Assembly: GCF_001513675.1 (NCBI RefSeq)
Contig: NZ_CP013859.1
Span: forward strand, 993,081 to 1,057,080
DNA: 64,000 nt
Direction of reading: 5' to 3'
Source of the DNA: Microbacterium sp. XT11
Lineage (GTDB): Bacteria; Actinomycetota; Actinomycetes; Actinomycetales; Microbacteriaceae
Shown: piece by piece, positions 38,774 to 58,957 of the stretch
Position numbering within the stretch: the first letter of the stretch is position 1
Layout: each line of letters opens with the position of its first letter
Position numbers and translations under genes: made by a program
Notes under the pieces: generated by a model
What the model saw: the letters and a program-made list of their open reading frames with translations, nothing else
Told to the model about the DNA's origin: nothing
Database searches by the model: none

Positions 38774-38778
38774 CACGA

Positions 38779-38811
38779 GCGGGGCGCACGGCCGACCGTC
38801 GTGCGCCCCGC
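38779..38811 (+). terminator. Intra-operon hairpin between binding protein and permeases
   Basis: GCGGGGCGCACG (38779-38790) pairs perfectly with 38800-38811 across a 9-nt loop, 6 nt after the binding-protein stop. As in other importer operons it probably acts as a partial terminator or mRNA stabiliser, because the permease genes continue on the same strand 34 nt later. Confidence 0.75.
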
Positions 38812-38844
38812 CATCCCGCCCCCCGACCCGCGAGGTATCGACCA

Positions 38845-40622: not shown

Positions 40623-40639
40623 CAGGGAAGGACATCACC

Positions 40640-41674
40640 GTGACTGCGCATGCATTCGCCTCAGAGGCCGAGCTGGAGGAGGCGCTGACCACGCCGAGCC
40701 GCGCGCTCGTCGACGACCTCGCCGCCGGATCGGGCGACCTGGTGATCCTCGGCGCCGGGGGCAAGATGGGCCCGACCCTCGCGGTGCTCGCCCGCCGCGG
40801 GCTGGATGCCGCGGGGCGCGAAGGCGACGAGGTCTACGCCGTGTCGCGGTTCGGCGACGCCGCGCTCCGTGCGCGCCTCGAGGATGCTCGCGTGAGGGTC
40901 GTGCCGTTCGACCTCATCGAGAACGACGACCTCTCGTCGCTGCCCGATGCGCCGAACGTCGTGTTCATGGTCGGCGCCAAGTTCGGCGCGGCGACCAACG
41001 CCTCCTGGGCATGGGAGGTCAACGCGGCGCTTCCCGACCGCGTCGCCCGCCGCTACCGCGACAGCGCCATCTCCGTGCTCTCCACGGGCAACGTCTACCC
41101 CTTCGTACCCGCATCGTCGGGCGGCGCATCCGAAGACGTCGCCCCCGCGCCGATCGGGGAGTACGCGCAGTCGTGCCTCGGCCGCGAGCGCGTGTTCGAG
41201 TTCGGCGCGCAGGAGCGCGGCACGCGTGTGTCGCTCATCCGCCTCAACTACGCCGTCGACCTGCGCTACGGCGTGCTCGCCGACATCGGCAGCGCCGTGC
41301 ACTCCGGTCAGCCCGTGTCGGTCGCGACGGCGAACGTGAACGTCGTGTGGCAGGGCTACGCGAACGAGGTCGTGCTGCGCAGCCTCTCGCACGCCTCGAC
41401 CGACGTCTTCACCATCAACCTCACTGGCCCCGAGCTGCTCAGCGTCGAGTCGATCGCGCACCGCTTCGGGGCGCTGTTCGACCGCGAGGTGGAGATCGTC
41501 GACGACCCGCAGCCGACCGCCCTGCTCAGCGATGCGCGCCGCTGCATGGCGCTGTTCGGGTACCCGTCCGTGCCTGCCGAGGAGCTGATCCGCCTGCAGG
41601 CCGAGTGGATCGCCGCCGGACTGCCCCTGTCGGCCAAGCCCACCAAGTGGGCCGTGCGGGACGGGAAGTTCTGA
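40640..41674 (+). CDS. NAD-dependent epimerase/dehydratase-family protein
   Basis: This 344-residue protein has a Rossmann fold whose nucleotide motif reads VILGAGGKMGPTLAVLA, and an extended SDR domain. The usual YxxxK is not obvious (the region GEYAQSCLGRER lacks the Lys), so catalysis may differ from classic epimerases. It starts at GTG 40640 with GGGAAGGA upstream, and its stop overlaps the next ATG. It probably modifies the sugar imported by the preceding ABC system; the reaction is unknown. Confidence 0.75.
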   Translation: MTAHAFASEAELEEALTTPSRALVDDLAAGSGDLVILGAGGKMGPTLAVLARRGLDAAGREGDEVYAVSRFGDAALRARLEDARVRVVPFDLIENDDLSSLPDAPNVVFMVGAKFGAATNASWAWEVNAALPDRVARRYRDSAISVLSTGNVYPFVPASSGGASEDVAPAPIGEYAQSCLGRERVFEFGAQERGTRVSLIRLNYAVDLRYGVLADIGSAVHSGQPVSVATANVNVVWQGYANEVVLRSLSHASTDVFTINLTGPELLSVESIAHRFGALFDREVEIVDDPQPTALLSDARRCMALFGYPSVPAEELIRLQAEWIAAGLPLSAKPTKWAVRDGKF

Positions 41675-42735
41675 TGTCCGTTCCCGCACTCCGCCCGCAG
41701 GCCGCGGCGACCCTCGCCAGAGGCGCCGTGATCCCGGCGCATCCGCTCGCCCTCACCGCCGGCCGGCGTCTCGACGAACGCCGTCAGCGCGCGCTCACCC
41801 GGTACTACCTCGATGCGGGAGCCGGCGGCATCGCGATCGGCGTGCACACCACCCAGTTCGAGATTCGCGACCCCGAGCACGCGCTGTTCGAGCCCGTGCT
41901 CGCGCTCGCGGCCGAAGAGCTCGACGCCAGGGCGGGTGCCGAGATCGTGCGCATCGCGGGCGTCGCCGGCGACACGGCGCAGGCGGTGGCCGAGGCCGAG
42001 CTCGCGCGCAGCCTCGGCTACGACGCCGTGCTCGTGAGTCCTCGGGTGGCCGGGGCCGACGAGCGCGCTCTGCTCGACCGGGCCCGCGCCGTGGGCGAGG
42101 TGCTCCCCGTCGTCGGCTTCTACCTGCAGACCGCCATCGGCGGCCCCGTGCTCGACCGGGAGTTCTGGCGCGAGTTCGCCTCGATCCCCGCCGTGGTCGC
42201 GGTGAAGGCCGCGCCGTTCGACCGCTACCGCACGCTGGAGCTGGTGCGCGGTGTCGCGGCATCCGGTCGCGCCGATGAGATCTCCCTGTACACCGGCAAC
42301 GACGACGCGATCGTCGCCGACCTGCTCTCCGAGTTCCACGTCGACTCCCCCGACGGGCGGCGCACCCTGCGCTTCGTCGGCGGCCTGCTCGGCCAGTGGG
42401 CGGTGGGCACGCGTGCGGCGGTCGCCCTGCTGGAGCGGGCGCGCAGCGCGATGGAGGGGGATGCCGAGGCGTACCGCGAGCTGGGATTGCTGGCGTCCGA
42501 CATGGTCGACGTCAACCAGGCAGTGTTCGACCCCGGCAACGACTTCCACGGCGTGATCGCCGGCGTGCACGAGATGCTGCGTCAGCAGGGACTGCTCGAG
42601 GGCATCTGGTGCCTGGACCCCGCCGAGGGCCTCTCTCCTGGACAGGCCGACGAGATCGCCCGCGTGCGACGCGCCTACCCCCACCTCAACGACGACGCCT
42701 TCATCGCCGAGCACCTCGAGGACTGGCTGCGATGA
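41674..42735 (+). CDS. DapA-like (dihydrodipicolinate synthase/N-acetylneuraminate lyase superfamily) aldolase
   Basis: This 353-residue TIM-barrel protein shows DapA-superfamily traits: an activated start AVIPAHPLALTAGRRLDERRQ, the LSP-like VLVSPRVAGADE, and the Schiff-base Lys candidate in VVAVKAAPFDRYRTLE. It is longer than DapA (about 290), with a C-terminal extension. In a sugar operon it is more likely a keto-acid aldolase or dehydratase than a lysine enzyme. Overlaps link it to both neighbours. Confidence 0.75.
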   Translation: MSVPALRPQAAATLARGAVIPAHPLALTAGRRLDERRQRALTRYYLDAGAGGIAIGVHTTQFEIRDPEHALFEPVLALAAEELDARAGAEIVRIAGVAGDTAQAVAEAELARSLGYDAVLVSPRVAGADERALLDRARAVGEVLPVVGFYLQTAIGGPVLDREFWREFASIPAVVAVKAAPFDRYRTLELVRGVAASGRADEISLYTGNDDAIVADLLSEFHVDSPDGRRTLRFVGGLLGQWAVGTRAAVALLERARSAMEGDAEAYRELGLLASDMVDVNQAVFDPGNDFHGVIAGVHEMLRQQGLLEGIWCLDPAEGLSPGQADEIARVRRAYPHLNDDAFIAEHLEDWLR

Positions 42736-43745
42736 GCGCCGCCGCCGCGGTCGCCCCCGCCGTGGTAGCCGTGGTGCCGGAGGGGCTGTTCGCGGAGTTC
42801 TTCTCGGATGCCGACGAGGCACGCCTGCGGGCGGCGGCCGAGCGCCTCGGCGGGGAGTTCGTGCGGGTGGACCGGCTCGACGAGGTCGACGCATCGGCGG
42901 CGCGCGTCGTGATCACGAGCTGGGGTGCTCCCCCGTTCGACGAGACCGTGCTGGCGACTCTGCCCGCGCTCGAACTCGTCGCGCACACCGGTGCGACGGT
43001 GAAGTTCTTCGCCACGGATGCCCTCTTCGACCGCGGCGTGCGGGTGACGCAGGCCGGCGCGGGCATGGCCCGATCGGTGGCGGAAGTGTCGCTGGCCTTC
43101 ACGCTGGCGCTGCTGCACCGCGTGCCCGAGATGCACGAGGCCGTGCGCGCGGGCGGCTGGTACGACGCCGAAGCCGTCGGTGCGCAGCATGAGCTCCTCG
43201 GGGCTCCCATCGCCGTGATCGGCGCCTCGCGCACCGGCCGTGCGTACCTGGAGCTGCTTCGGGCGCTGGGGGCGGAGCCGCTGCTCGTCGACCCCACGAT
43301 CACCGCGGCCGCTGCCGAGGAGCTGGGCGCCGCGCTCGTGCCCCTCGACGAGGCGCTGCGGCGCGCGCGCATCGTCGCCGTGCACGCGCCGACCCTGCCG
43401 GAGACGCATCACCTCATCGGGGGCGCGGAACTCGCGCTGATGCCTGACGGCGCCGGCCTCGTCAACACCGCGCGCTCGTGGCTCGTCGACGAGCAGGCGC
43501 TGCTGACCGAGCTGCGCAGCGGACGCCTGCGCGCGGCGATCGACGTCTTCGACGAGGAGCCGCTGCCCGCGGACAGCCCGTTCCGTCGTGTCCCCGGGGT
43601 GCTGCTGACACCGCACCGTGCCGCGGGGACGACCGAGGGGCGGCTGCGTCAGGGCCGCATCGTGGCCGACGAGCTCGACGCCTTCTCGGCAGGAGAGCCC
43701 CTCGTGCACGCCGTCGACCGTTCGCAGCTGTCGACGATGGGCTGA
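42732..43745 (+). CDS. D-isomer-specific 2-hydroxyacid dehydrogenase
   Basis: This 337-residue NAD enzyme has a nucleotide domain with PIAVIGASRTGRAYLELL (GxxxxG variant of GxGxxG) and the family's catalytic segments: the Arg in LVNTARSWLVDE, the Glu in IDVFDEEPLP, and the His in LLTPHRAAGTTE. It likely reduces or oxidises a 2-keto/2-hydroxy sugar acid made in this operon. The ATG lies inside the DapA-like stop (ATGA). Confidence 0.85.
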   Translation: MSAAAAVAPAVVAVVPEGLFAEFFSDADEARLRAAAERLGGEFVRVDRLDEVDASAARVVITSWGAPPFDETVLATLPALELVAHTGATVKFFATDALFDRGVRVTQAGAGMARSVAEVSLAFTLALLHRVPEMHEAVRAGGWYDAEAVGAQHELLGAPIAVIGASRTGRAYLELLRALGAEPLLVDPTITAAAAEELGAALVPLDEALRRARIVAVHAPTLPETHHLIGGAELALMPDGAGLVNTARSWLVDEQALLTELRSGRLRAAIDVFDEEPLPADSPFRRVPGVLLTPHRAAGTTEGRLRQGRIVADELDAFSAGEPLVHAVDRSQLSTMG

Positions 43746-43747
43746 CG

Positions 43748-44770
43748 ATGACGGCTCTCCGCGTCGCGTTCGCCGGCCTCGCCCACTCGCATCCGTTCAC
43801 GGACGCGCAGAACGTGCTCGCGCAGGGCGGGGAGGTCGTCGCGGTGCACGATGCGGATCCTGCGGCCGCGGCGGGCTTCGCCGGGCGGTTCGACGCGGTC
43901 GTGGCGCCGTCGACCGAGGCGCTGGCGTCGTACGGCGCCGACCTCGTGATCGCGACGCCGCGGTGGGACGAGACGGTGCCTGCCCTGCGCGGGCTGACCG
44001 GTGCGGATGCCGCGGCCCCCGTGTTCGTGAACAAGACGGTCGCGGCGACGCCGGCGCAGGTGTCGGCCTTCGCCGCCGCCGTGGCGGACGCGCACGTCGC
44101 CGTCGGCACCTCGTCGGTGCTGCGGTTCGCCCCTGCGGTCGTCGCGCTGGCCGAGGCTGTCGCCGCAGACCGTGCGGCAGGGGCGGAGGTGCTCGCGGTC
44201 CGCGTGCACGCGCAGCACGACGCCGCGGCGTTCCGCCTGCCGGGGCGCGAGTGGCAGGACGACCCCGAGCGCGGCGGCGGCACCCTCGTGACCGTCGGGG
44301 TGCACGCATGGGAGATGGTCGACGCGGTGCTGCCCGGCGCGGCGCTCGTCGCGCCGTCGGGGTCGACGCGGCGGATCGCGGGATCGGCGACGCGCTCGGA
44401 AGACCTCGGCGTCGTGTGCGGGATGCTGGAGGTGCCGGGCGCGGCGGTGACCTCGCGGGCTGCACCACCGGCCGTGCCCGCGTCGACCGCCGGACGTGTG
44501 GCGTCGGCCGTGGAGCGGATCCCGGTGCAGGTGCTGGTATCCGGAGTGCCAGGCCCCGACGCGTACCGGATCGAGGTGGTCACGGCCGCCGGCGTGCGTG
44601 CGGCCGACCTCGACGTCGACGACGCGAACGAATCGCTCGGCTTCGCCGGACTCGTGCGTGCGCTGCGCGCCGCGGCCGGTGATGGTCGCGCGGCGGCGCC
44701 GTGGAGCGAGGCGGAGGTCGTCGTGCGCAACACCGTGACGGCGGCCATGGCCGCGCGGGAGGGTCGATGA
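43748..44770 (+). CDS. Gfo/Idh/MocA-like oxidoreductase with divergent active site
   Basis: This 340-residue protein has a Rossmann start LRVAFAGLAHSHPFTDA, where GLAHSH replaces the dinucleotide motif. The family EKP motif is replaced by FVNKTVAAT, retaining the Lys. The C-terminal helix motif is GGGTLVTVGVHAWEMVDAVL, with His. It resembles the locus's other AHTH-type protein at 34158. It begins 2 nt after the dehydrogenase stop and overlaps the GNAT gene. The reaction is unknown. Confidence 0.75.
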   Translation: MTALRVAFAGLAHSHPFTDAQNVLAQGGEVVAVHDADPAAAAGFAGRFDAVVAPSTEALASYGADLVIATPRWDETVPALRGLTGADAAAPVFVNKTVAATPAQVSAFAAAVADAHVAVGTSSVLRFAPAVVALAEAVAADRAAGAEVLAVRVHAQHDAAAFRLPGREWQDDPERGGGTLVTVGVHAWEMVDAVLPGAALVAPSGSTRRIAGSATRSEDLGVVCGMLEVPGAAVTSRAAPPAVPASTAGRVASAVERIPVQVLVSGVPGPDAYRIEVVTAAGVRAADLDVDDANESLGFAGLVRALRAAAGDGRAAAPWSEAEVVVRNTVTAAMAAREGR

Positions 44771-45741
44771 GCGGCGACGCGGTGATCCGACCGGCGACCG
44801 CGGCGGACGAACCCGCCCTCGCCCGGCTCTGGGCCGCCGCGTTCACGCCTCCGCTGGCACCGGATCAATGGCTCGTGGATGCGCGGCGGCACAAGCACAC
44901 GCTGGTCGCGGAGGATGCGGACGGCCTGTGCGGGTCGATCTACGGCGTGCCCAAGAGACTGCGCGAGCGCGACGGCGGAACAGCCGCCGTGCACGCCATC
45001 GGCAGCGTCGCGGTCGACGCCAGGGCGCGCGGCCGGGGACTCGCGCGCCGTCTCGTCGCGGCCTCGCTGCAGACGGCGGGGGATGCGGACTGGGCGCTGC
45101 TGTTCACCGGCACCCCCGAGGTCTACCGGTCGAGCGGTTTCGAGACGTTCGCGATGGATCGCGTGCTCGCGGGGCCGTGGAGAGCACCGTCCGCTGCGGA
45201 GGGAGCCGCCGGAGTGCCCGCCGGCACCGGCGACGGGGTGCTGCGGCGGCGGATCGGTGCGAACGGCGGCCGGCCCTCGGCATCCGGAGCTGCCGTCCTT
45301 CCCGACGCCGTGCGCATCGCCTACGAGCACTCCCGGGAAGGTCTGGTGCTCGCGCCGGTGCGCAGGGAGGTGGACTGGGAGATGGCCGCCGTGCGGCTCC
45401 GCGGCGCGCTCCTGTACACGCACGAGACGACCGACTCGGCCTACGTCGTCGCCACGATCCGCGGAACGACCGGCGTGGTGTGCGAGGCCGCGCTGCCGAC
45501 GGATGCCGATGCCGACGGCATCCGTCATGCGCTCCTCACCGCGCTCGCCGCGGACTGGGAGGCCGCCGATGTGACGGACTGCGACATCGCTGTTCCCGCC
45601 CGCCCCGGTGATGAGGGCGCGTTCGCTGGCTTCGCGCCGGAGGCGAGGCGCCTCACCGATCACACCGGCATGACTCGTGCACTGCGGCGCCGTCCGCGCC
45701 TCGACGGCATCCGACACTTCACGGAGGCCGACTACTTCTGA
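44767..45741 (+). CDS. GNAT-family N-acetyltransferase (Eis-like)
   Basis: This 324-residue protein starts with a GNAT domain (VIRPATAADEPALARLWAAAF) and an acetyl-CoA loop VDARARGRGLARRLVAASL near residue 90. The second half resembles the extra domains of Eis-type acetyltransferases but is shorter. Its ATG lies inside the Gfo/Idh stop, so it is part of the sugar operon and may acetylate an amino group on the substrate or a derivative. The substrate is unknown. Confidence 0.75.
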   Translation: MSGDAVIRPATAADEPALARLWAAAFTPPLAPDQWLVDARRHKHTLVAEDADGLCGSIYGVPKRLRERDGGTAAVHAIGSVAVDARARGRGLARRLVAASLQTAGDADWALLFTGTPEVYRSSGFETFAMDRVLAGPWRAPSAAEGAAGVPAGTGDGVLRRRIGANGGRPSASGAAVLPDAVRIAYEHSREGLVLAPVRREVDWEMAAVRLRGALLYTHETTDSAYVVATIRGTTGVVCEAALPTDADADGIRHALLTALAADWEAADVTDCDIAVPARPGDEGAFAGFAPEARRLTDHTGMTRALRRRPRLDGIRHFTEADYF

Positions 45742-45843
45742 ACAGGTTCGACACCGACTCTGGGGAACTGGGGATCGATACGAGGCGCGGCCGACCGGTC
45801 CGCCCAGGAAACAGCGGCGATGTCGCCGTGAGGAGGGATGACG

Positions 45844-47985
45844 ATGACGCGTGATGAGAACACCGACCCCGGCGCGCTGCGCAGCAGGCGCATGGTGCTG
45901 GCCGGCTTCGGGGCAGCCGCGCTCGGCGGAGTGGCGGCCGTGGCCACGCACACGCCGGCGCAGGCGGCGGGGCCGGCCGTGCCGCAGGCCGCGACGAGCG
46001 CCCGCTCGGTCGGCAGTGCCGGGACCGTCGACGAGCTCAGCGGGGTGAAGGGCAAGGCCGGCGACCTCGTCGCGGTGGCCGGACACACGACACCCGGCGA
46101 CGGCGGAGGCGGAACATACCGGCTCGTGACCGCCGACCCGCCCGCACCCAACGGCGGCACCGTCGTGGCGGGCAAGGGCGGATCGTGGGTGCTCGTGCAC
46201 TCCGGCGTGGTGGACTTCCGGGTGTTCGGGCTGTTCGACGCCTCGCAGCCGGCGGATGACGCGCTCGACGCCATGGTGGGCGATCCCTCCATCCACCGCA
46301 TCGAGGCGCACACCGACCTCAACTTCGTTCGCAGGCACCGGTTCTCGCGCTCGAACATCGCGTTCGACTTCGGCAACCACCTCATGACGACCGAGGGCAT
46401 CGAGAACGCAGGGAAGGACGATCCGTTCGCCGCGGTCATGTTCTTCCGCGGCGAGGTGACGGATGCCGTGCAGGAGGCGCGGCTCGGCGAGGACGTGCCC
46501 GACCTCGCCGACGTCTTCCCCGTGGCCGACTCGTCGTTCTTCGCGGTCGGCGAGTGGTATGCGGCCGAGGTGAATCCGCTCAAGGGCCGATGGGAGCGCG
46601 AGCTGCAGCGGCTCGTACAGGTCACGCAGATCGTCGACGGCACGCACATCCGCGTGAACTACCAGAACGGCTGGCCGCTGGGGAAGGACCGCTCGATCAC
46701 GTGGCGGCGCATCGTCCCCGTGCACGACGTGCGCGTCTCGAACCTGCGGTTCCGAGGCGGCGGGGCCGACGAGTTCACCGGATCGCATCCGCTCGCGTTT
46801 GAATACGCGGTGCGCTGCGACGTCGACCACATCGACGGCACCGCCACGTTCTGGCCGCTCATCCAGCGCCGGTGGAACACCTACTACTCGACGGAGAGCT
46901 GCAACCTGACCAACCCGACGTCGGTCACCTGGGGCGGCGCCGGGTACCTGACGCAGCAGATCTACTGCCTCTACGGCTACGTCGCGAACTGCCACACGTC
47001 GAACGCACGGCACCTCAACGACTTCACGGCGAGCGCCTACTGCCTGGTGGAGAACTGCCACGGCGACGGCGACGACCAGGGGCCGTTCGTCACCCACGGA
47101 CAGTACGAGCACGACCTCACCTACGTCGGCAACTCGGGCCTCATGACGTTCGCGAACTCGGGCGCGGCGTGGGGCTCTGCGGCAAAGCGCATCACGGTGC
47201 GCAAGCACGTCTGCTCGTGGTTCGTGGCCCGCGTGCGCGTCACCGACCTCACCCTGGAGGACGTGCGGGTCATCGGGAAGCCGTCGCTGGCGGGGTCGGG
47301 CATGCTGTGGATCAACGCCGACGGGGCGCAGCTGCGCGGGTGCACGGCATCCGACACGCTCATCATCACCCAGCAGTCGGATGCCTCGTCGCGACCGACC
47401 GTCATCGCGGACTCGAACTTCACGTTCACCGCGCCAAGCGAGCTCACGAACGCCTCGGTCACGACGCCCGTGACGTTCGTCGACACCGTGCTCGACGGCG
47501 TGGGCGGCATGAAGGTCAACGGCCCCGGTGCCGTGACGTTCCGCGGTGCGACGTTGACCGCACCCGCGACGGCGGATCCCGTCTCGCTTGCATCGGCGCG
47601 CGTGCGTTTCGACGGGGCCACCCTGTCGGGTGCGCGTGTCGTCGCGGCGGGGCCGGACGGACAGGAGATCGAGTTCACCGGCACGACGGTCGAAGGGGCG
47701 TCAGGAGCGGTGATCTCGCGTGCGGGTTCGGGGGAGCGCCGCGTGCTGCTCTCCGGGTCGACGCTGCGGGGGAAGGACGCCGTTCACGTCGCGCTCACCG
47801 ACGGGCGCAACCATTACCGTGCCGTCGGCACCCGCTTCGAGGGCGGAGCGATCGAGCTGCGGGATTCCGGGTTCGGCGACGGATCGACGCTGCTGCACAC
47901 GGGCAACGTCGAGCTCGGGGTGACGCGCACCGCGTTCCCGGAGGCGGGCGACAGGGTCGTCGACACCGCGAACGTGGTGGCATGA
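45844..47985 (+). CDS. Tat-exported right-handed beta-helix protein, paralogue 1
   Basis: This 713-residue protein has a twin-arginine signal (ALRSRRMVLAGFG, Arg15-16) ending near AQAA. The N-terminal domain (about 45-115) has GTVVAGKGGSWVLVHSGVVDFRVFG (in part), a fold entry seen in tailspike-like proteins. The middle and C-terminal parts are a pectate-lyase-like parallel beta-helix of short V/I/T-rich rungs. The most conserved block against its paralogue (50322) is NARHLNDFTASAYC, ENCHGDGDDQG and THGQYEHDLT, near residues 386-430, rich in His/Asp/Glu and a likely active site. It may be a polysaccharide lyase or hydrolase of undescribed type. ATG 45844 is preferred (AGGAGG 7 nt upstream). 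Confidence 0.75.
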   Translation: MTRDENTDPGALRSRRMVLAGFGAAALGGVAAVATHTPAQAAGPAVPQAATSARSVGSAGTVDELSGVKGKAGDLVAVAGHTTPGDGGGGTYRLVTADPPAPNGGTVVAGKGGSWVLVHSGVVDFRVFGLFDASQPADDALDAMVGDPSIHRIEAHTDLNFVRRHRFSRSNIAFDFGNHLMTTEGIENAGKDDPFAAVMFFRGEVTDAVQEARLGEDVPDLADVFPVADSSFFAVGEWYAAEVNPLKGRWERELQRLVQVTQIVDGTHIRVNYQNGWPLGKDRSITWRRIVPVHDVRVSNLRFRGGGADEFTGSHPLAFEYAVRCDVDHIDGTATFWPLIQRRWNTYYSTESCNLTNPTSVTWGGAGYLTQQIYCLYGYVANCHTSNARHLNDFTASAYCLVENCHGDGDDQGPFVTHGQYEHDLTYVGNSGLMTFANSGAAWGSAAKRITVRKHVCSWFVARVRVTDLTLEDVRVIGKPSLAGSGMLWINADGAQLRGCTASDTLIITQQSDASSRPTVIADSNFTFTAPSELTNASVTTPVTFVDTVLDGVGGMKVNGPGAVTFRGATLTAPATADPVSLASARVRFDGATLSGARVVAAGPDGQEIEFTGTTVEGASGAVISRAGSGERRVLLSGSTLRGKDAVHVALTDGRNHYRAVGTRFEGGAIELRDSGFGDGSTLLHTGNVELGVTRTAFPEAGDRVVDTANVVA

Positions 47986-47989
47986 CCGA

Positions 47990-48025
47990 GGCGGGGCGGG
48001 ATGCCGGACGGCGTCCCGCTCCGCC
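47990..48025. terminator. Bidirectional terminator between beta-helix gene 1 and GntR
   Basis: GGCGGGGCGGGATGCC (47990-48005) pairs with 48010-48025 with about two mismatches and a 4-nt loop. It sits between convergent genes. Confidence 0.75.
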
Positions 48026-48059
48026 GGTGAACGCGATCAGGTCTCGCGTTCTTTCCGTC

Positions 48060-48728
48060 TCAGCCGGCGTCGGCGGCGGGTTCGGCGAGGTGTGCGATGC
48101 GGTCGACGGCCTGGCGCACGTGCTCGGCGATCACCTGGCCCGCGCGGTCGGGGTCGCCACTGGCGATCGCGTCGAGGATGAGGCGATGGCTGCGCACGTG
48201 CTCCGCCTGTTCACGGGGCGGCAGGGCGGCGTTGGCCGCGGTGATGAAGCCGGTGATCCGTCCGCGCAGCTGTGCGCTCAGCTCGGTGAGGAAGCGGTGA
48301 TCGGAGAGCTCGGCGAGCGCCTGGTGGAACGCGCGGTCCTGTCGCAGCACCTCCGCCATGTCGCCGGGCTCGGCGGCCTCCATCGCCGCGATGATCGCCT
48401 CCAGCCGCGCAGCGGACTCGCTCGTCCAGCGCTCCTGCACGCGCACGGCCATGAACTGCTCGAGCACGATGCGCAGGCTTGCGATCTCTTCGAGGTCGCG
48501 GGCGCTGAGCTCCGCCACGCGCGCTCCGCGGCGGGGCTCCCGCGTGATCAGGCCCTCCTCGGCGAGCCGCGTCAGGGCTTCCCGCACGGGGATGTGGCTG
48601 ACGCCGAGCAGCTCGGCGAGCTTGCGCTCGACGAGACGTTCACCCGGGGCGAGCTCGCCGGAGTGGATCGCCGACCGCAGTTCGTCGGTGACCTGCTCGG
48701 CGATGTTCTGATCCGAGACACTGCGCAT
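48060..48728 (-). CDS. GntR-family regulator, FadR/FCD subfamily
   Basis: This 222-residue repressor has the GntR winged helix (LVERKLAELLGVSHIPVREAL) and an all-helical FCD sensor domain with the metal-binding pattern (RQDRAFHQAL, SHRLILDAI with His residues). ATG 48728 has GAGGAGGG 8 nt upstream. It is divergent from the MFS gene, and TGCTATAGCA palindromes lie between them. It is the best candidate for the protein that binds TGCTATAGCA across this locus. Confidence 0.88.
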   Translation of the reverse strand: MRSVSDQNIAEQVTDELRSAIHSGELAPGERLVERKLAELLGVSHIPVREALTRLAEEGLITREPRRGARVAELSARDLEEIASLRIVLEQFMAVRVQERWTSESAARLEAIIAAMEAAEPGDMAEVLRQDRAFHQALAELSDHRFLTELSAQLRGRITGFITAANAALPPREQAEHVRSHRLILDAIASGDPDRAGQVIAEHVRQAVDRIAHLAEPAADAG

Positions 48729-48799
48729 GAGTGCGACCCTCCTCGACGCCGCGCACACGCCGTTTCCGTCGCGGTGGTGCGCATCCGTCGTCCGCTCGA

Positions 48800-48857
48800 T
48801 GCTATGGCATCCACGGAGAGGGTGGACAAATCCGTCGGAGTGCTAGATGCTATAGCA
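48800..48857. promoter_or_regulatory. Two TGCTATAGCA-type operators in the GntR/MFS divergent promoter
   Basis: TGCTATGGCA (48800-48809, one mismatch) and the perfect palindrome TGCTATAGCA (48848-48857) flank the promoters of the GntR gene and the MFS gene. The same 10-mer recurs at 54047, 57873 (one mismatch) and 57924. Confidence 0.8.
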
Positions 48858-48885
48858 AACATCTGAGCGAGACGAAGGAGCTGTG

Positions 48886-50325
48886 ATGTCCGAGACCCGA
48901 GCGGCCACCGACGTACGTCCCCCGGAGGAGGTCGGTGCACGTGCGATGAAGAAGGCGATCTGGCGGCTGGGGCCGTTCCTCGGCCTGCTGTACCTCGTCG
49001 CGTACATCGACAGGAACAACGCAGGGTTCGCGAAGCTCGAGATGACCCAGGCGCTGCAGATCACCGAGGCCGCCTTCGGGTTCGCCGCCGGCATCTTCTT
49101 CATCGGCTACCTGCTGTTCGAGGTGCCGAGCAACCTGCTGCTCGAGCGCTTCGGCGCCCGCAAGTGGATCGCCCGCATCATGATCTCGTGGGGCATCGTC
49201 GCCGCCCTGACGGCCTTCGTGCAGGACGAGACGCAGTTCGCGATCGCTCGATTCGTGCTCGGTATCGCCGAGGCCGGATTCTTCCCCGGCGTGCTGCTCT
49301 ACCTCACGCTGTGGTTCCCGCGGCAGTACCGCACCCAGGTGCTCGCGGTGTTCGTGCTGTCCAACCCGATCGCCAACGCCGTCGCCGCGCCTCTGTCCGG
49401 ATGGATGCTGGAGCTGCACGGTCTGTGGGGACTCGACGGCTGGCAGCTCGTGTTCCTGCTTCAGGGCATCCCCGCGGTGCTCCTCGCGTTCGTCGTGTTC
49501 TTCTGGCTCCCGGATCGCCCGCAGGACGCCCGCTGGCTGGATGCCGCGGAGCAGCGCTGGATCACCGACACCCTCGCCGCTGAGACGCAGGCCACCGAGC
49601 GCAGGCACGGACGGCTCCGGTTGCGCGAGGTCTTCGGCAACGGCAGGCTCTGGACGCTCATCGTGCTGTTCTTCGGTGTCGTCTTCGGCGCCTACGGCCT
49701 CGGGATGTGGCTGCCGACGATCGTCAAGAACATGGGCGACTTCTCGAACGGCACCACCGGCTGGCTCGTCGCGCTGCCCAACCTCTGCGCCGCGCTGGTG
49801 ATGCTGCCGTGGGAGCGCGCCGCGCGCAGGCAGGGCAACATCCCGCTGCAGATCGGCATCACGCTGACGGTCACCGCGCTGTCGTTGATCGCCGCCGTCG
49901 CCGCGCAGGACACGCCCGTCGTCGCGCTCATCGCGCTGTGCGTCGGCATGTCGGCGCTGTTCTCGACGACGCCGCTCTTCTGGAGCCTGCCGCCGATGGT
50001 GCTCACCGGCACGGCGGCGGCAGCCGGGCTGGCGTTCATCAACTCCGTCGGCAACCTCGCCGGGTTCGCCGGTCCGTATGCCATCGGCTGGGTCAGCCAG
50101 GCGTCGGGATCCGCCGTATGGGGACTGCTGCTCGTCTCGGGCCTCACCCTGCTCGGCGCGGTGATCGCGTTCGTGCTGAGCCGCCGCGCGGACTTCACGA
50201 CCGCGCCCGACGCCGTGACCGCACCCGACCCCGTGACCGCGGTCGACGGCGCAGCCGTGCCGGCATCCGATGACGGGGATGCCGTGACCCGTCGCGGCAC
50301 GGGACTGGCAGGAGACGGACGATGA
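48886..50325 (+). CDS. MFS transporter, anion:cation symporter (ACS) type
   Basis: This 479-residue importer has 12 membrane segments. RLGPFLGLLYLVAYIDRNNAGFA and LGIAEAGFFPGVLLYLTLWFPR are signatures of the ACS group (hexuronate, galactonate, tartrate and phthalate permeases). It probably imports a sugar acid or oligosaccharide released outside by the beta-helix proteins. Its stop overlaps the start of beta-helix gene 2 (ATGA), so importer and exported protein are translationally coupled. ATG 48886 has AAGGAG 5 nt upstream. Confidence 0.88.
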   Translation: MSETRAATDVRPPEEVGARAMKKAIWRLGPFLGLLYLVAYIDRNNAGFAKLEMTQALQITEAAFGFAAGIFFIGYLLFEVPSNLLLERFGARKWIARIMISWGIVAALTAFVQDETQFAIARFVLGIAEAGFFPGVLLYLTLWFPRQYRTQVLAVFVLSNPIANAVAAPLSGWMLELHGLWGLDGWQLVFLLQGIPAVLLAFVVFFWLPDRPQDARWLDAAEQRWITDTLAAETQATERRHGRLRLREVFGNGRLWTLIVLFFGVVFGAYGLGMWLPTIVKNMGDFSNGTTGWLVALPNLCAALVMLPWERAARRQGNIPLQIGITLTVTALSLIAAVAAQDTPVVALIALCVGMSALFSTTPLFWSLPPMVLTGTAAAAGLAFINSVGNLAGFAGPYAIGWVSQASGSAVWGLLLVSGLTLLGAVIAFVLSRRADFTTAPDAVTAPDPVTAVDGAAVPASDDGDAVTRRGTGLAGDGR

Positions 50326-52532
50326 CCATCCTGGACGCGGAGGACGGGGCACCAGCGGTCGCCGGCGACGAGGTGCGGTCGGCGGGCCGCCGCCGTGCGC
50401 TCATGGCCGGACTCGGCGCGGTCGCGATGGGTGCGGCCGGCGCCCTCGGGGGCTCGGCGTCCGCGCAGGCAGCTCCCCTCGCGGCCGGTGCGAAAGACGT
50501 CACGAGAGCGGAATCGGTCGCCGACCTGGCGCGCCTGAAGGCTCGGGACGGCGAGGTGGCGGTCGTCGCCGGTTACCGCACACCGGGCGATGCCGGACTG
50601 CTCGTGTACGTGGGCAGCGAAGACGCGACGGCCGCGGCCAACGGCGGCACCGTCATCGCGGGCGCCCGCGACACCCGCTGGATGCTGCAGCACGACGGCA
50701 CGGTCGACTTCCGGGTCTTCGGCATCACCGGGCCCGAGGCCCCGGCCGACGACGCGCTCGACGCCATGGTGAACGACCCCCGTGTCCGCCGCATCGAGGC
50801 CGGAACCGACCTGCTGTTCCAGCGGCGGCACCGCTTCACGCGGTCCCACCTGGAGATCGACTTCGGCGGTCACCTCGTCACCACCGACGGCATCGAGAAG
50901 AACACCCACGACAACCCGTTCGGCGCCGTGCTGTTCTTCACCGGTGTGTCGAAGGACGTCGTGGTCGAGCATCCGCTCGCTGAGCCCTGGCCGGAGCTGA
51001 CGGACGCCGTCGCCGTGCCGGACGCTTCGCGCTTCCCCGTCGACTCGTGGTGGGCGGTGCAGTGCGACCCCGTCGCCGGAGGCGGAGCGGACGAGCGCGA
51101 GCTCCAGCGTTTCGTGCGGGTGACGCAGCAGATCGACGGCACGCACATCCGGATCGACTACCTGAACGGCTGGCCCCTCGACGCGGGCCGCCGGCTCACC
51201 TGGCGGCAGATGGACCCCGTGTCCGGCATCCGCATCGCGAACATGCGATTCCTCGGGGCGGGGCCTTTCGACGGCCCGACCGACGGCTCCTTCCCCGACT
51301 CCCGCGAACTCACCGGATCGCATCCGATCGCGTTCGAGTACGCCATCCACTGCGACGTCGCCGACGTGCACGCGAGCCGCACCTGGTGGCCCGTCATCAT
51401 GCGGCGGTGGAACACCCACTTCACGACCGAGCGCTGCTCCGTCGAGAACCCGCCCACCGTGTTCTACGGCGGCGCGGGGTACCTCACGCAGCAGATCTAC
51501 AGCCTCTACGGGCGGGTGAGCGACTGCAGCTCGTCGAACGCCCGGCACCTCAACGACCTCACCGCCAGCGCCTACTGCATCGTCGAGAACTGCCACGGCG
51601 ACGGCGACGACCAGGGCGGCAACCCCTTCACCACGCACGGGCAGTACGAGCACGACCTCACCTTCATCGGCAACTCCGGCCTCATGGACATCGCGAACTC
51701 GGGCGCACAGTGGGGTACGGCCGCCAAGCGCATCACGGTGCGCGACCACGTGTGCTCGTGGTTCGTCGCCGGCACGAAGATCAGCGACCTCACCCTGGAG
51801 AACGTGCGGGTCATCGGCCGCTCGACCTTCGATCCGCAGGCGACCATGACCATCAACGCCGACGGCGCGCAGGTGCGCGGCTGCACCGCGGGGCTGCTCG
51901 CCATCGGGCAGCGCTCGTCGCGCTCCTCGCGGCCGACGGTCATCGAGGACTCCGCCTTCGCCCTCCCCAAGGACCAGGTGCTCGTCCAGACGCCGGTCAC
52001 GGCATCCGTCCGCTTCGTCGGCTGCACCATCACCGGGATCGACGGGGTCAAGGCACGCGGCTCCGGTCCCGTCGAGTTCGTGGACTGCCGCCTCAGCGGT
52101 CCCGTCGAGGGAGCGCCGATGGAGATCGGCGGCGCGCGGGTCACCCTCCGCGGGGGCTCGGTGCGCGACGTGCGACTGAGCGCCACCGCGGTGCGCGACC
52201 AACTCTTCGTGCTCGACGGGGTCGAGTTCGGCACGGAGCGCGCCGACGGTGCCCTTGTATCCAGGGCGGCCGGCGCCGGCGTGGTCACCTGGCGCGTGAC
52301 CGGGGTGACCTCGACGGTGCCGAAGGGCGCAGCGCACCTCGACATCGCGACCGGCGTCAACCACGCGCGCATCATCGGCGGCCAGTTCACCGGCGGACGG
52401 CTGCGGCTCGCCGACGGGTTCGCCGAGCCGTCGACACTGCTGTACACCGACACGGTGGAGCGCGGCGTCGAGACCGCGCTGCCCGAGGCGGGACCGCGCG
52501 TGCTCATCGCCGACGTGCTGACGAGCGCGTGA
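50322..52532 (+). CDS. Tat-exported right-handed beta-helix protein, paralogue 2
   Basis: This 736-residue paralogue of the protein at 45844 keeps the same architecture: Tat signal (SAGRRRALMAGLG, Arg23-25), N-terminal domain with WMLQHDGTVDFRVFG, then a long beta-helix. The conserved block NARHLNDLTASAYC, ENCHGDGDDQGG and THGQYEHDLT is at about residues 405-446. GYLTQQIYSLYGRVSDC before it is also shared, with Cys pairs that could form disulphides outside. An insert (FDGPTDGSFPDSRE) near residue 320 is unique to this copy. Two copies in one locus suggest division of labour on one polymer. Confidence 0.75.
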   Translation: MTILDAEDGAPAVAGDEVRSAGRRRALMAGLGAVAMGAAGALGGSASAQAAPLAAGAKDVTRAESVADLARLKARDGEVAVVAGYRTPGDAGLLVYVGSEDATAAANGGTVIAGARDTRWMLQHDGTVDFRVFGITGPEAPADDALDAMVNDPRVRRIEAGTDLLFQRRHRFTRSHLEIDFGGHLVTTDGIEKNTHDNPFGAVLFFTGVSKDVVVEHPLAEPWPELTDAVAVPDASRFPVDSWWAVQCDPVAGGGADERELQRFVRVTQQIDGTHIRIDYLNGWPLDAGRRLTWRQMDPVSGIRIANMRFLGAGPFDGPTDGSFPDSRELTGSHPIAFEYAIHCDVADVHASRTWWPVIMRRWNTHFTTERCSVENPPTVFYGGAGYLTQQIYSLYGRVSDCSSSNARHLNDLTASAYCIVENCHGDGDDQGGNPFTTHGQYEHDLTFIGNSGLMDIANSGAQWGTAAKRITVRDHVCSWFVAGTKISDLTLENVRVIGRSTFDPQATMTINADGAQVRGCTAGLLAIGQRSSRSSRPTVIEDSAFALPKDQVLVQTPVTASVRFVGCTITGIDGVKARGSGPVEFVDCRLSGPVEGAPMEIGGARVTLRGGSVRDVRLSATAVRDQLFVLDGVEFGTERADGALVSRAAGAGVVTWRVTGVTSTVPKGAAHLDIATGVNHARIIGGQFTGGRLRLADGFAEPSTLLYTDTVERGVETALPEAGPRVLIADVLTSA

Positions 52533-52566: not shown

Positions 52567-53958
52567 GTGAACGACACCGCATCGCGGACGCGCATCGGCG
52601 ACAGCATCCGCATCCCCCGCACGGCCGCCCGCATCGGCGTCGCCCGTCGCGACATCACCCCGCCCGTCGGCATCCGTGCCAAGAACTGGGGCCCCGCCGA
52701 CTGGGAGCGTTCCGAGGGCGCGCACCGACCGTTCACGCTCACCGCCCTCGCCGTGATCGGCGGGGATGGGCGCCCGCGCGTGCTGCTGGCCGTCGACGGC
52801 ACCTGGTGGCGGCGTGTGGCCGACGAGCGGGGCGTGCGCGGCACGATCCTCGACGCGCTCGGCCTGGAGCCCGACCAGCTCATGGTGTCGCTGTCGCACA
52901 CCCACGCCGGCGCCGTGCTGTGCGCAGCCGACGCGCATCTGCCCGGCGGCGAGCTCATCCCCGGATATCTGGAGTCGCTCGCCGCGGCGGGCGTCGCGGC
53001 CGGGCGCGATGCGCTCGACGGCGCTCGACCCGGACTGATCGAGTGGACGTCGGGCCGGTGCACCCTTGCCGCCGACCGCGAGCTCGACGTCGACGGGAGG
53101 GCGCTGGTGGGCTACAACCCCGGCGCTCCCGCCGACGACACCGTGATGATCGGCCGGCTCAGCGTCGGCGGCGAGGTGCGCGCGACGCTGGTGAACTACG
53201 CGTGCCACCCGACGACTCTCGCCTGGCAGAACCGCGAGGTGTCGCCCGACTACGTCGGCGCGATGCGCGACATCGTCGAGCGGGAGACCGGGGCGCCGTG
53301 CCTGTTCGTGCAGGGCGCGTCTGGAGAGCTGGCCCCGCGCGAGCAGTACACGGGCGACGTCGGGGTGGCCGACCGGCACGGGCGCTCGTTGGGGCACGCC
53401 GTGCTCGCCGCGCTCGATGCGCTGCCGGCTCCGGGCGAGCAGCTGACGCTCGAGGGCGTGGTCGAGTCGGGGGCGCCGCTGGCGATCTGGGCCGGCGCGC
53501 CCGCGGAGGCCGGCGATGCGGCGGCGGGGTCTCTCACGAGCGTCGAGCTGACGCTGCGCGATCTGCCGACGCTCGACGAGCTCGCCGAGGAGTGGAAGGA
53601 CATCGACCCGCGCTCGCGCGAGGAGCGTCTTGGTCGTGCGCGCAACCTGCGCGAGGGGTACATCGACGGGCCGACCGTGCAGCATCCGGTGTGGGCGTGG
53701 CGATGGGGCGACGCGGTGCTCGTCGCGCATCCGGGCGAGGCGTACTCGCGGCTGCAGACCACGCTGCGCGCGCGGTTCCCTGACACGCCGATTCTCGTGA
53801 TGAACCTCACCAACGGCCCGGGCTTCGTGTACCTGCCCACTCGCGACGCGTACGACCGCGGCGCGTACCAGGCATGGCAGACCCCGCTCGCCCCCGGCGC
53901 GCTGGACGCGCTGGAGCAGCACGCCGTCTCGGTGGTCGCCGGTCTTCTGGGCCGCTGA
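52567..53958 (+). CDS. Neutral/alkaline ceramidase-like hydrolase
   Basis: This 463-residue protein matches the N-terminal domain of neutral/alkaline non-lysosomal ceramidases: ARRDITPPVG at the start, MVSLSHTHAG near residue 110 (zinc His pair), NYACHPTTLAW near 212 and LFVQGASGELAP near 245. There is no signal peptide and the C-terminal ceramidase domain is short, so it is probably cytoplasmic and unlikely to act on ceramide. In this sugar locus it may hydrolyse an amide or ester on an imported fragment. GTG 52567 has GGAGG 7 nt upstream. Confidence 0.8.
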   Translation: MNDTASRTRIGDSIRIPRTAARIGVARRDITPPVGIRAKNWGPADWERSEGAHRPFTLTALAVIGGDGRPRVLLAVDGTWWRRVADERGVRGTILDALGLEPDQLMVSLSHTHAGAVLCAADAHLPGGELIPGYLESLAAAGVAAGRDALDGARPGLIEWTSGRCTLAADRELDVDGRALVGYNPGAPADDTVMIGRLSVGGEVRATLVNYACHPTTLAWQNREVSPDYVGAMRDIVERETGAPCLFVQGASGELAPREQYTGDVGVADRHGRSLGHAVLAALDALPAPGEQLTLEGVVESGAPLAIWAGAPAEAGDAAAGSLTSVELTLRDLPTLDELAEEWKDIDPRSREERLGRARNLREGYIDGPTVQHPVWAWRWGDAVLVAHPGEAYSRLQTTLRARFPDTPILVMNLTNGPGFVYLPTRDAYDRGAYQAWQTPLAPGALDALEQHAVSVVAGLLGR

Positions 53959-54073: not shown

Positions 54074-54832
54074 ATGACACAGGCACCCGTCGCGATCGTC
54101 ACCGGAGGCTCGGCCGGCATCGGCTGGGAGATCGGCCGCCGCCTCGCCGACGACGGCTACCTCGTCATCGCCGCCGACCGCGTCCCCGGCTTCACGGAGG
54201 GCGACAACCCCGCCGGCATCCTCTGGCGCGAGCTCGACGTCACCGACCACGCCGCCGTCGATCGCGTGTTCGGCGAGATCGAGGCCGAGCTCGGCCCCAT
54301 CGAGGTGCTCGTGAACAATGCCGGGATTCAGCGGCACCGCGGCATCGAGGACCTCACCTGGGACGAGTGGGCAGCCGTCGTCGACGTCAACCTGCACGGC
54401 GTGTTCTCGGCGCTGCAGGCGGCAGGAAAGCGGATGCTGGCGCACGGCGGCGGGCGCATCGTGAACATCTCGTCGATCTCGTCGCGCGGATCGGCGGGGC
54501 GGGCGCCGTACGCCACCACCAAGGCCGCCGTCATCGGACTCACCGCCACCGCCGGCGCCGAGTGGGCGGCCAGGGGCGTGCGCGTCAACGCGGTCGCCCC
54601 CGGCTACGTCGACACCGGTGTCTTCCGCCAGGGCGTCGAGCAGGGCACGCTCAGCCTCGACACGATCCTCGCGCGCATCCCCGCGAAGCGCTTGGCCGAC
54701 GCGAGCGAGATCGCCGCGGCCGTGAGCTTCCTCGTCTCGGACGAGTCGCGATACATGAACGGGCAGACGCTGTACGTCGACGGCGGCTTCATGGTCGATT
54801 ACGGCATCCCTCTCGCGAAGAAGCCGGAATGA
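54074..54832 (+). CDS. Short-chain dehydrogenase/reductase (SDR) 1
   Basis: This 252-residue classical SDR has the cofactor motif TGGSAGIGWEIG, NNAG in VLVNNAGIQRH, catalytic Ser in ISSISSRG, and YATTK (Tyr-x-x-x-Lys). It probably oxidises a sugar or sugar lactone precursor as an early step of the sugar-acid pathway. GGAGGAGA lies before ATG 54074, and the stop overlaps the enolase-family gene. Confidence 0.9.
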   Translation: MTQAPVAIVTGGSAGIGWEIGRRLADDGYLVIAADRVPGFTEGDNPAGILWRELDVTDHAAVDRVFGEIEAELGPIEVLVNNAGIQRHRGIEDLTWDEWAAVVDVNLHGVFSALQAAGKRMLAHGGGRIVNISSISSRGSAGRAPYATTKAAVIGLTATAGAEWAARGVRVNAVAPGYVDTGVFRQGVEQGTLSLDTILARIPAKRLADASEIAAAVSFLVSDESRYMNGQTLYVDGGFMVDYGIPLAKKPE

Positions 54833-55911
54833 CCGCCATCGCGCGCATCGACACCGCGACGGCGGTGCTCCCCCTTCCCGCCCCGCTGCAGCTGGGCGCG
54901 ATGACGGTGACGCGGCGCGAGTACAGCGCCGTTCGGGTCGTGGACGCCGACGGCGTCGAGGGCGTCGCCTACTGCCTGTCGCGCGAAGCGCCCATGGCCG
55001 AGATCGTCGAGCGGCTCGTCGCCCCGCACGCGCGAGGGGCGGACGCCGACGATCCGGCATCCGCATGGGAGCGGATGCTGCGCGGCAGCGCCATCGTCGG
55101 GCGCGTAGGGCTGGTGCGCCGCGCGATCGGCCTCGTCGACATCGCTCTGTGGGACATCGCCGCCCGTCGAGCAGGGCAGCCGCTCTGGCGGATGCTCGGC
55201 ACCGGGAGCGCCCCGAGCGACGCGATGCTCGTGGCTGCCTACCCGTCGCCGTCGCGGACCCCGCGCGAGGTCGCCGACGAGGTGCTGTCCCAGGCCGCGG
55301 GCTGGTCGACGGTGAAGATCTCGCGCACGCCCGACCCGTCGTACATGCGTGAGCTGATCGCGCTGATCACAGCCGAGCTCCCCGTCGAGACGGGGCTGGT
55401 GGTCGACGTGGGCTTCGGGTGGACCGACGCGGATGCCGCGCTCGCCGAGATCGCGCAGTGGGGAGACCCGCGGCTCGCCTGGCTCGAAGACCCGCTGCTG
55501 CCGGAGGACGCGGCCGGGTGCGCGCGCATCCGCCGGGAGTCGGGTCTCGCGATCGGGGTGGGCGACGAGGTCACCGACCCCGACGTGCTGCGGAGGCTCG
55601 TCGATGAACAGGCCGTCGACGTGCTGCGGCTCGACGTCGTGGCGATCGGCGGTGTCACGCCGGCGCTGGACGTGATCGCGTGGGCGGCGGAGCGCGGTGT
55701 GCCGGTCTCGGGCCACGTGTATCCCGAGGTCACGGCGCACCTGGGCATCGGCGTGGAGACCTTCGCGCGCGGCGTCAACCCGTACGACCCTGCGCCGTCG
55801 TTCGTGCGCGGGGGTCCGTCGTTCGACGGACGGGTCGTACCCGCGGACGCGCCGGGCCTCGGCTTCACGCTCGACAGCGGGGTGTTCGATTTCGGAGGGA
55901 GCGCACGATGA
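54829..55911 (+). CDS. Enolase-superfamily (mandelate racemase/muconate lactonizing) sugar-acid dehydratase-like enzyme
   Basis: This 360-residue enzyme has an N-terminal capping domain and a TIM barrel. Visible catalytic pieces are the Lys in STVKISRTP (near 163), Asp in VVDVGFGW (near 192), Glu in WLEDPLLP (near 220), Glu in IGVGDEVTD (near 247) and His in VSGHVYPE (near 296), the Lys/His arrangement of mandelate-racemase-type acid-sugar dehydratases. It should dehydrate an aldonate to a 2-keto-3-deoxy acid, which the later dehydrogenase and FAH-family protein could process. It overlaps SDRs on both sides. Confidence 0.85.
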   Translation: MTAIARIDTATAVLPLPAPLQLGAMTVTRREYSAVRVVDADGVEGVAYCLSREAPMAEIVERLVAPHARGADADDPASAWERMLRGSAIVGRVGLVRRAIGLVDIALWDIAARRAGQPLWRMLGTGSAPSDAMLVAAYPSPSRTPREVADEVLSQAAGWSTVKISRTPDPSYMRELIALITAELPVETGLVVDVGFGWTDADAALAEIAQWGDPRLAWLEDPLLPEDAAGCARIRRESGLAIGVGDEVTDPDVLRRLVDEQAVDVLRLDVVAIGGVTPALDVIAWAAERGVPVSGHVYPEVTAHLGIGVETFARGVNPYDPAPSFVRGGPSFDGRVVPADAPGLGFTLDSGVFDFGGSAR

Positions 55912-56744
55912 CCACGTCTTCGACGGATTCTTCGTCGGATGCCGGCACGACGGCATCCATTCGTCCGCGCAGCGCCGTGGTGACGGGCAGCGGCAAGGGC
56001 ATCGGCCGGGCCATCGCCGAACGGCTGACGGCCGACGGCTGGATCGTCGTCGGGCTGGAGCGCTCCCCGGGCTCCGGCACCGTCGAGGAGGGCATCTGCG
56101 CCGAGGTCGTGCTCGGCGACTCGTCGGAGCGAGCCGCGCACCTCCGCGCCGCCGAGGCCGCGATCGCGAGGGCGCCGCTGGCCGGCTGGGTGAACAACGC
56201 CGGGATCACGAAGCGCACCGCGCTGCACGAGCTCGACGAGGACGTCGTGCGCGAGATCGTCGGCATCAACGGCTTCGGCTACGTCTGGGGGTGTTCGGCG
56301 GCGGTCAGCGCCTTCGTCGACCAGGGCGTGCCCGGCGCGATCGTGAACATCGGCTCCATCCACGGTCGTGCCAGCCACCCCGACCACGCGGCCTACGAGT
56401 TCACCAAGGGCGGCATCGACGCGCTCACCCGCAGCGTCGCGGTGACGTACGGCGGGCTCGGCATCCGCGCGAACACGGTCGCGCCAGGCGGTGTGCGCAC
56501 ACCCCACCTGGAGGCGCAGATCGCGGCCGCCGCCGATCCCGCGGCCGAGGAGAGGGCGCTCGCCGAGGGCCCGCCGATGGGGCGCATCGCCCGCGCCGAG
56601 GAGGTCGCCGCGATCACGGCGTTCCTGCTGTCGGACGAGGCGCCGTATGTCACGGGACAGTCGATCGCGGTCGACGGCGGCTGGACGGCATCCTTCGGCG
56701 ACGTCTCGGTGGACCCGGCCTTGCGGGCCCGCTTCCGCTCCTGA
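55908..56744 (+). CDS. Short-chain dehydrogenase/reductase (SDR) 2
   Basis: This 278-residue SDR has TGSGKGIGRAIAERL, NNAG in WVNNAGITKR, the catalytic Ser in NIGSIHG and Tyr-x-x-x-Lys as YEFTK. A 20-residue Ser/Thr-rich N-terminus precedes the fold. The ATG lies in the enolase-family stop. It would oxidise a 2-keto-3-deoxy sugar acid or the starting sugar. It ends the plus-strand trio that begins under the TGCTATAGCA site at 54047. Confidence 0.88.
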   Translation: MTTSSTDSSSDAGTTASIRPRSAVVTGSGKGIGRAIAERLTADGWIVVGLERSPGSGTVEEGICAEVVLGDSSERAAHLRAAEAAIARAPLAGWVNNAGITKRTALHELDEDVVREIVGINGFGYVWGCSAAVSAFVDQGVPGAIVNIGSIHGRASHPDHAAYEFTKGGIDALTRSVAVTYGGLGIRANTVAPGGVRTPHLEAQIAAAADPAAEERALAEGPPMGRIARAEEVAAITAFLLSDEAPYVTGQSIAVDGGWTASFGDVSVDPALRARFRS

Positions 56745-56756
56745 CCCCGCGCGGCG

Positions 56757-57122
56757 TCAGGCCTTGAGCATCGAGGCGCGGGAGATCAGCCCGCCGACCA
56801 CGTCGAAGGTCGCGATGGTCTCGGTGGCGACGCCCGCGTTGATGACCCGCTCCTGCGCGACGACCCAGCGCGTGCCGAACTGCACGGTCGTGTCGATGAC
56901 GCATGACAGCTCGGGGTTCTGCAGCCGCGGCTCGTAGAACGCGCGGATCGCGGCGGAGCCCGTGAGCGGCTCGGGGGCGACCCCGGTGATGACGGCATCC
57001 GGCGCGTAGGCGGCCACGAAGGCGTCGAGGTCGTGCGCGTTGAACGCGTCGAGCTGCGCCTGCACGGTATCGAGGGCGGAACGCCCGGTGGCCGGACGGT
57101 CGAGGGCGGCGGGCTCAGTCAA
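56757..57122 (-). CDS. NTF2/SnoaL-like small protein
   Basis: This 121-residue protein reads as one alpha+beta cone: VQAQLDAFNAHDLDAFVAAYAPDAVI, then SAAIRAFYEPRL and a final sheet with RWVVAQERV. The family includes isomerases, hydrolases and ligand-binding proteins; the substrate is unknown. It starts at TTG 57122, overlapping the SDR 3 stop by 8 nt, so it is coupled to that gene. Confidence 0.75.
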   Translation of the reverse strand: MTEPAALDRPATGRSALDTVQAQLDAFNAHDLDAFVAAYAPDAVITGVAPEPLTGSAAIRAFYEPRLQNPELSCVIDTTVQFGTRWVVAQERVINAGVATETIATFDVVGGLISRASMLKA

Positions 57123-58932: not shown

Positions 58933-58957
58933 CGCGAGAAGCGAGGGAGGAGCAGCC

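Follow-up and report, generated by a model that had tools for sequence, protein, structure and literature searches.

Beta-helical depolymerases are known both from phage particles and from bacteria. The Klebsiella K1 capsule lyase (NTUH-K2044-K1-1 ORF34; 7w1c/7w1d) is a phage particle protein in which Arg333/His334 line the -1 site, H373A abolishes activity, and Y311A and R397A leave about 0.4% and about 0.04% of it, respectively (PMC8822698). The enzyme of phage LKA1 is a lyase by NMR, with a putative site composed of Asp497, His494, His499, Arg459, and Arg329 (PMC5701251). On the bacterial side, WceF from Pantoea stewartii (6tgf) is a Tat-exported hydrolase (PMC7949094), a tailspike-like beta-helix protein encoded by a single gene in an exopolysaccharide synthesis cluster.

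Here we describe two tailspike-like beta-helix proteins, BH1 and BH2, from a stretch of 64,000 nucleotides of Microbacterium sp. XT11 (NZ_CP013859.1), referred to as the window. BH1 (713 aa; 45844..47985, plus strand) and BH2 (736 aa; 50322..52532, plus strand) are encoded by open, intact reading frames, are 51% identical over 674 aa, and resemble WceF in length. An earlier note on this DNA had described them as paralogues on either side of a GntR/MFS pair, and the reading frames and neighbouring genes bear this out. The motifs NARHLND, TASAYC, ENCHGDGDDQG, and HGQYEHDLT are indeed common to both, with a single conservative F/L change after NARHLND. We read BH1 and BH2 as secreted tailspike-type depolymerases, a set of two enzymes with which the cell grows on a polysaccharide, and assign this reading as a whole a probability of roughly 0.65. 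Depolymerase activity as such is highly probable, judging from the fold, the invariant residues, the phage relatives, and the operon.

Fold and proposed active site

With BH1 and BH2 as queries, no Pfam or NCBIfam family scored above its curated cut-off, no PDB entry matched by sequence, and a literature search found no publication on the family. DUF4148, ASD1, and Pentapeptide_3 were rejected as families of these proteins, the matches being at chance level. WceF gave no sequence match either, whether by phmmer (at E up to 1) or in the search with the profile (at E up to 10). The “tailspike-like N-terminal entry” of the earlier note is weakly upheld: residues 42-151 of BH2 have marginal matches to tail fibre PHROGs, and the matching N-terminal part of the BH profile aligns with the equivalent region of tailspikes of known structure at E 0.008-0.1.

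Structure prediction, which the earlier note had proposed as a check, confirmed the beta-helix. The BH1 model, built as a monomer from a 57-sequence alignment, is a right-handed beta-helix with a mean pLDDT of 94.6 and a pTM of 0.91; the proteins themselves are likely to be trimeric. Phage tailspikes occupy ranks 1-8 of its structural matches (Z 22.8-28.2), among them the K1 lyase (7w1c; Z 28.2, rmsd 4.2, 479 residues), phi297 gp61 (4ru5; Z 27.1, rmsd 3.1, 417 residues), S2-4 (9k4a; Z 26.6, rmsd 4.1, 484 residues), LKA1 gp49 (4ru4; Z 26.2, rmsd 3.5, 415 residues), and AP22 gp54 (4y9v; Z 25.9, rmsd 3.2, 406 residues). Phage depolymerases were again best in a Foldseek search with the same model. 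The next matches, epimerases, GH91 enzymes, and polygalacturonases at Z 20-22, are expected because the beta-helix is common to all of them, and a common fold is by itself no proof of function. WceF (6tgf) is not among the 50 structural matches listed, which says nothing against a structural likeness. Like LKA1, BH1 carries an insertion beta-barrel (about residues 209-297; 46468..46734, plus strand), which hhalign aligned with the insertion domain of LKA1 gp49.

The His/Asp-rich block singled out in the earlier note falls, by motif order and hhalign, on the region that holds the active site in tailspike lyases. The proposed active-site block comprises residues 364-440 of BH1 (46933..47163, plus strand), with Tyr368, Arg389-His390, Asp393, His418, Glu422-His423, and Asn438, and residues 383-461 of BH2 (51468..51704, plus strand), with Arg408-His409 and His439. 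Across 122 aligned sequences, phage included, Arg389, His390, Asp393, Thr417, His418, Gly419, Glu422, His423, and Asn438 are invariant (BH1 numbering), as is Glu320, and Tyr368 is invariant save for two phage-type sequences with His. Arg389, His390, Asp393, His418, Glu422, and His423 are also kept in 11/11 of the most divergent sequences. The order Tyr-x6-Cys-x13-Arg-His, then His-Gly, is identical in LKA1 and AP22 and nearly so in K1. Unaided, hhalign placed the Tyr, Arg-His, and His-Gly of the BH proteins on those of LKA1 and their Arg-His on that of AP22, and covered the N-terminal part only of the K1 lyase; all of these alignments are weak (E 1e-4 to 0.02 in single comparisons, probability 2-55%). 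By sequence order and the alignment with LKA1, the Arg-His pair and the key His occupy places matching those of the K1 and LKA1 lyases.

The likeness has limits. Identity to the K1 lyase is 14% over the structural alignment, with no significant sequence match. The Asp found two residues before the key His in LKA1 (Asp497) and K1 (Asp371) is Val or Thr at position 416 in nearly all relatives, and His494 of LKA1 is likewise replaced. Arg397 of K1, which neutralises the carboxylate, has no clear counterpart in BH1; the candidates are Arg449, Asn438, and Lys448, of which Arg449 is missing from the phage relatives. Asp393 may have taken over the role of the Asp497-type residue. We do not file the BH proteins as K1/LKA1-type lyases because they lack the Asp ahead of the key His, a defining feature of that site; by analogy they may nevertheless work like them. 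The LKA1, phi297, and AP22 tailspikes further differ in their C-terminal part and have no transport or catabolic operon, and the K1 lyase belongs to a phage particle, whereas the BH proteins are cell-encoded with secretion leaders. Measured against Pfam, NCBIfam, and PDB, they are best read as a known kind of protein in a new sequence family, put to an uncommon use.

Locus organization, export, and catabolic context

Upstream of BH1, on the same strand, 4-base overlaps join the genes for an ABC sugar-binding protein (37535..38773), permease 1 (38770..39750), and permease 2 (39747..40622). They likewise join those for a Rossmann/epimerase-like conserved protein (40700..41674, start uncertain, assigned by eye), a DHDPS-family-like aldolase/lyase (41671..42735), a D-2-hydroxyacid dehydrogenase (42732..43745), a Gfo/Idh-like oxidoreductase recognised by a weak match (43742..44770), and a GNAT acetyltransferase (44767..45741). 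Because of these overlaps, 37535-47985 looks like one operon, as far as reading-frame coordinates can tell. For BH1, the start at 45844 is preferred over an ATG further upstream at 45838 because it lies at the better distance from the GAGGAGG ribosome site. The GntR/FCD regulator (48060..48758, minus strand) and an MFS symporter (48883..50325, plus strand), whose nearest subfamilies are the D-galactonate transporter and HpaX, separate BH1 from BH2. The MFS stop overlaps the BH2 start in an ATGA (50322..50325, plus strand), and the translational fusion of BH2 to the importer gene claimed earlier is thus wrong; the arrangement is one of translational coupling.

Both N-termini, RSRRMVLAGFGAAALGG and GRRRALMAGLGAVAMGAAG, have a twin-arginine motif, a hydrophobic stretch, and A-x-A. 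The predicted Tat-type signal peptides extend from residue 1 to about 42 in BH1 (45844..45969, plus strand), where AQA follows, and to about 51 in BH2 (50322..50474, plus strand). A strict Tat pattern was found in 56/106 relatives with a readable N-terminus, compared with 6/2120 shuffled N-termini. The Tat export proposed earlier is therefore well supported for both copies and many relatives, but not for every family member, since a homologue from Subdoligranulum is without a signal peptide. With this reservation, the proposal of a Tat-exported enzyme acting on an extracellular polymer finds good support in the fold, the invariant polar residues, the relationship to phage depolymerases, and the operon.

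The surroundings are conserved. Of the 52 loci at least 20 kb long, 45 carry the complete core of six genes, which encode the binding protein, both permeases, the Rossmann-type protein, the DHDPS-like aldolase, and the 2-hydroxyacid dehydrogenase. The Rossmann-type protein itself, named for its Rossmann-like N-terminus, has no Pfam, NCBIfam, or PDB match and is conserved in 47/52 of these loci, with a truncated copy in Subdoligranulum. Around this core, Microbacterium, Leifsonia, Cellulosimicrobium, and Oerskovia have a side module of GntR, a ceramidase-fold hydrolase, SDRs, and a sugar-acid dehydratase, joined in the window and several Microbacterium loci by an FAH hydrolase. In Streptomyces, Micromonospora, and Nonomuraea, the side module consists of IclR, a class III aminotransferase, another dehydratase, Amidohydro_2, and an SDR, many with FAH.

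In the window, this module follows BH2 with a cytosolic hydrolase of neutral-ceramidase fold (52567..53958), an SDR dehydrogenase (54074..54832), an enolase-superfamily sugar-acid dehydratase (54829..55911), and SDR dehydrogenase 2 (55908..56744), all on the plus strand. SDR dehydrogenase 3 (57115..57864, minus strand), D-2-hydroxyacid dehydrogenase 2 (57943..58932, plus strand), and an FAH-family hydrolase near L-2,4-diketo-3-deoxyrhamnonate hydrolase (58943..59815, plus strand, start uncertain) come next. The first of these proteins is without a Pfam or PDB sequence match; its predicted structure (mean pLDDT 76) resembles neutral ceramidases, with a Foldseek E of 1e-16 and a TM of 0.6, and its gene is kept beside BH2 in Microbacterium and the Cellulosimicrobium group.

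The non-phosphorylating L-fucose/L-rhamnose route 3 (PMC11199699) uses enzymes of the linked types, namely SDRs, an enolase-superfamily dehydratase, and an FAH hydrolase here and Amidohydro_2 in other genera, which gives a hint that the polymer contains a 6-deoxyhexose or an aldonate. Since no protein reached a curated cut-off, the connection is a lead only; moreover, the dehydratase in the window is nearer to L-talarate/galactarate dehydratase, and the route leaves several linked enzymes unaccounted for. More broadly, a polymer with uronic acid and/or 6-deoxyhexose can be put forward tentatively. A glutamate-1-semialdehyde-aminomutase-like class III aminotransferase (L050:5039-6421) occurs in 25 loci, from Streptomyces, Micromonospora, and others, and hints at a nitrogen-containing sugar or at the recruitment of an aminomutase. 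Separately, a Gfo/Idh-family protein of about 430 aa with a Cys-rich CPxxxxCPYxAP stretch (L093:11952-13259; 41 loci in all) adjoins BH1 in most non-Microbacterium loci.

Relatives and distribution

A scan of one genome per species (84,980 species) recovered at least 225 stretches encoding BH relatives; of these, 79 loci were retained, and the titles of all of them point to actinobacteria. A single-sequence genome search across phylum and family gave almost no matches because the locus is patchy in distribution, and its four borderline matches (E 4e-4 to 1e-3) are short stretches each. Within Microbacterium, the locus is accessory, being present in 15/149 genomes. Two copies occur in 34 of the 52 long loci (at least 20 kb). 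In the tree, BH2 forms a clade apart from the rest (support 0.999) with 37 proteins from many genera, and the pair is therefore old and retained. Fixed differences between the BH1 and BH2 clades, e.g. V416T, T435D, F436I, and A442Q (BH1 numbering), are near His418 and Asn438 in the sequence and are compatible with different specificities; there is an even chance that the two enzymes divide labour.

Although a plain BH1 scan of viral contigs gave no match, tblastn identified three Vibrio phage proteins and the Escherichia phage ESCO8 tail spike (UPW37474.1; E 6e-37) as relatives. The latter is a true homologue, 24-26% identical over 518 aa in an alignment reaching the C-terminal tip, with the key residues kept except for His in place of Tyr368, and has a phage N-terminal adaptor where the BH proteins have a signal peptide. 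Shared ancestry of the family with phage tailspikes is the best reading. Two homologues lie on viral contigs, one of them adjoining an integrase gene. A tandem pair filed as viral (L014:1-4011), the first member frameshifted in the deposited contig, is probably from an enterobacterial chromosome because oqxAB-like genes (76% identical) adjoin it. A human faecal phage record (MT835975.1:3-104) encodes a 34-residue stretch 73.5% identical to residues 663-696 in the C-terminal part of BH2. That the genes in the window are a phage remnant was rejected, as no tail gene was recognised nearby and the proteins have Tat leaders and a metabolic operon.

The Subdoligranulum homologue (L008:4721-6292; 49% identity, E 1e-137) lacks the C-terminal part as well as the signal peptide and sits between ABC transporter genes and genes for 2-hydroxyacid dehydrogenase, Gfo/Idh, and GNAT proteins. 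It may act inside the cell.

Mode of action and biological role

The K1 and LKA1 lyases suggest by analogy that BH1 and BH2 might cleave by beta-elimination, to which we give slightly less than an even chance. We go no higher because GH88/GH105 and KduI, looked for in support of a lyase route, had no match in the genome and because WceF is a hydrolase. GH88/GH105 and KduI are the usual partners of uronate lyases. The same observations would suit glycoside hydrolases, or intramolecular transglycosylases like inulin fructotransferase, using the carboxylates of Asp393, Glu422, or Glu320, all of which are invariant; GH91 enzymes, moreover, match the model at Z about 20-21. This alternative is a serious one and still somewhat doubtful, given that both the closest structural matches and the order of the Tyr, Arg-His, and His motifs point to lyases.

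WceF also raises the possibility that the bacterium trims its own exopolysaccharide, as it is a Tat-exported tailspike-like enzyme from the very producer of its polymer, stewartan. Such self-directed activity is improbable here: a scan of the neighbouring genes recognised none for exopolysaccharide synthesis, what is conserved beside the BH genes is a set of importers, catabolic enzymes, and GntR or IclR regulators, and the locus is accessory in Microbacterium. Least probable are non-catalytic polymer-binding or surface adhesin/structural beta-helices, one or both feeding the importer as receptors, since the presence of PfbA among the structural matches and the existence of adhesins among beta-helix surface proteins are set against a strictly invariant His/Arg/Glu/Asp cluster where known active sites sit, in phage and bacteria, and against the linkage to import and catabolism genes.

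The reading as a pair of secreted depolymerases for growth on a polysaccharide builds on a fold, a residue conservation, two old clades, and a conserved operon that computation establishes. Because the BH genes adjoin genes for sugar import and sugar-acid breakdown, this soil bacterium most likely feeds on the polysaccharide. BH1 and BH2 would be exported by Tat in folded form and cut the extracellular polymer in the groove of Tyr368, Arg389-His390, Asp393, His418, and Glu422-His423, perhaps at different bonds. The oligosaccharides would enter via the linked sugar ABC importer, acidic pieces perhaps via the MFS symporter, and the aldolase, dehydrogenases, sugar-acid dehydratase, and FAH hydrolase of the locus would then break them down. 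A bolder version, which we consider rather unlikely, is an actinobacterial two-enzyme polysaccharide system in which a phage-type tailspike was duplicated, each copy cutting another bond, and a new cytosolic route of Rossmann-type protein, divergent aldolase, and ceramidase-fold hydrolase replaces GH88/KduI.

The operon thus restricts the substrate class of a nameless sequence family, and the conserved pair with its fixed active-site differences makes a division of labour directly testable. If our reading is true, phage-type tailspike depolymerases serve as secreted nutritional enzymes at a large scale, in at least 225 genome loci, and the family would offer naturally occurring enzymes for use against capsules or exopolysaccharides.
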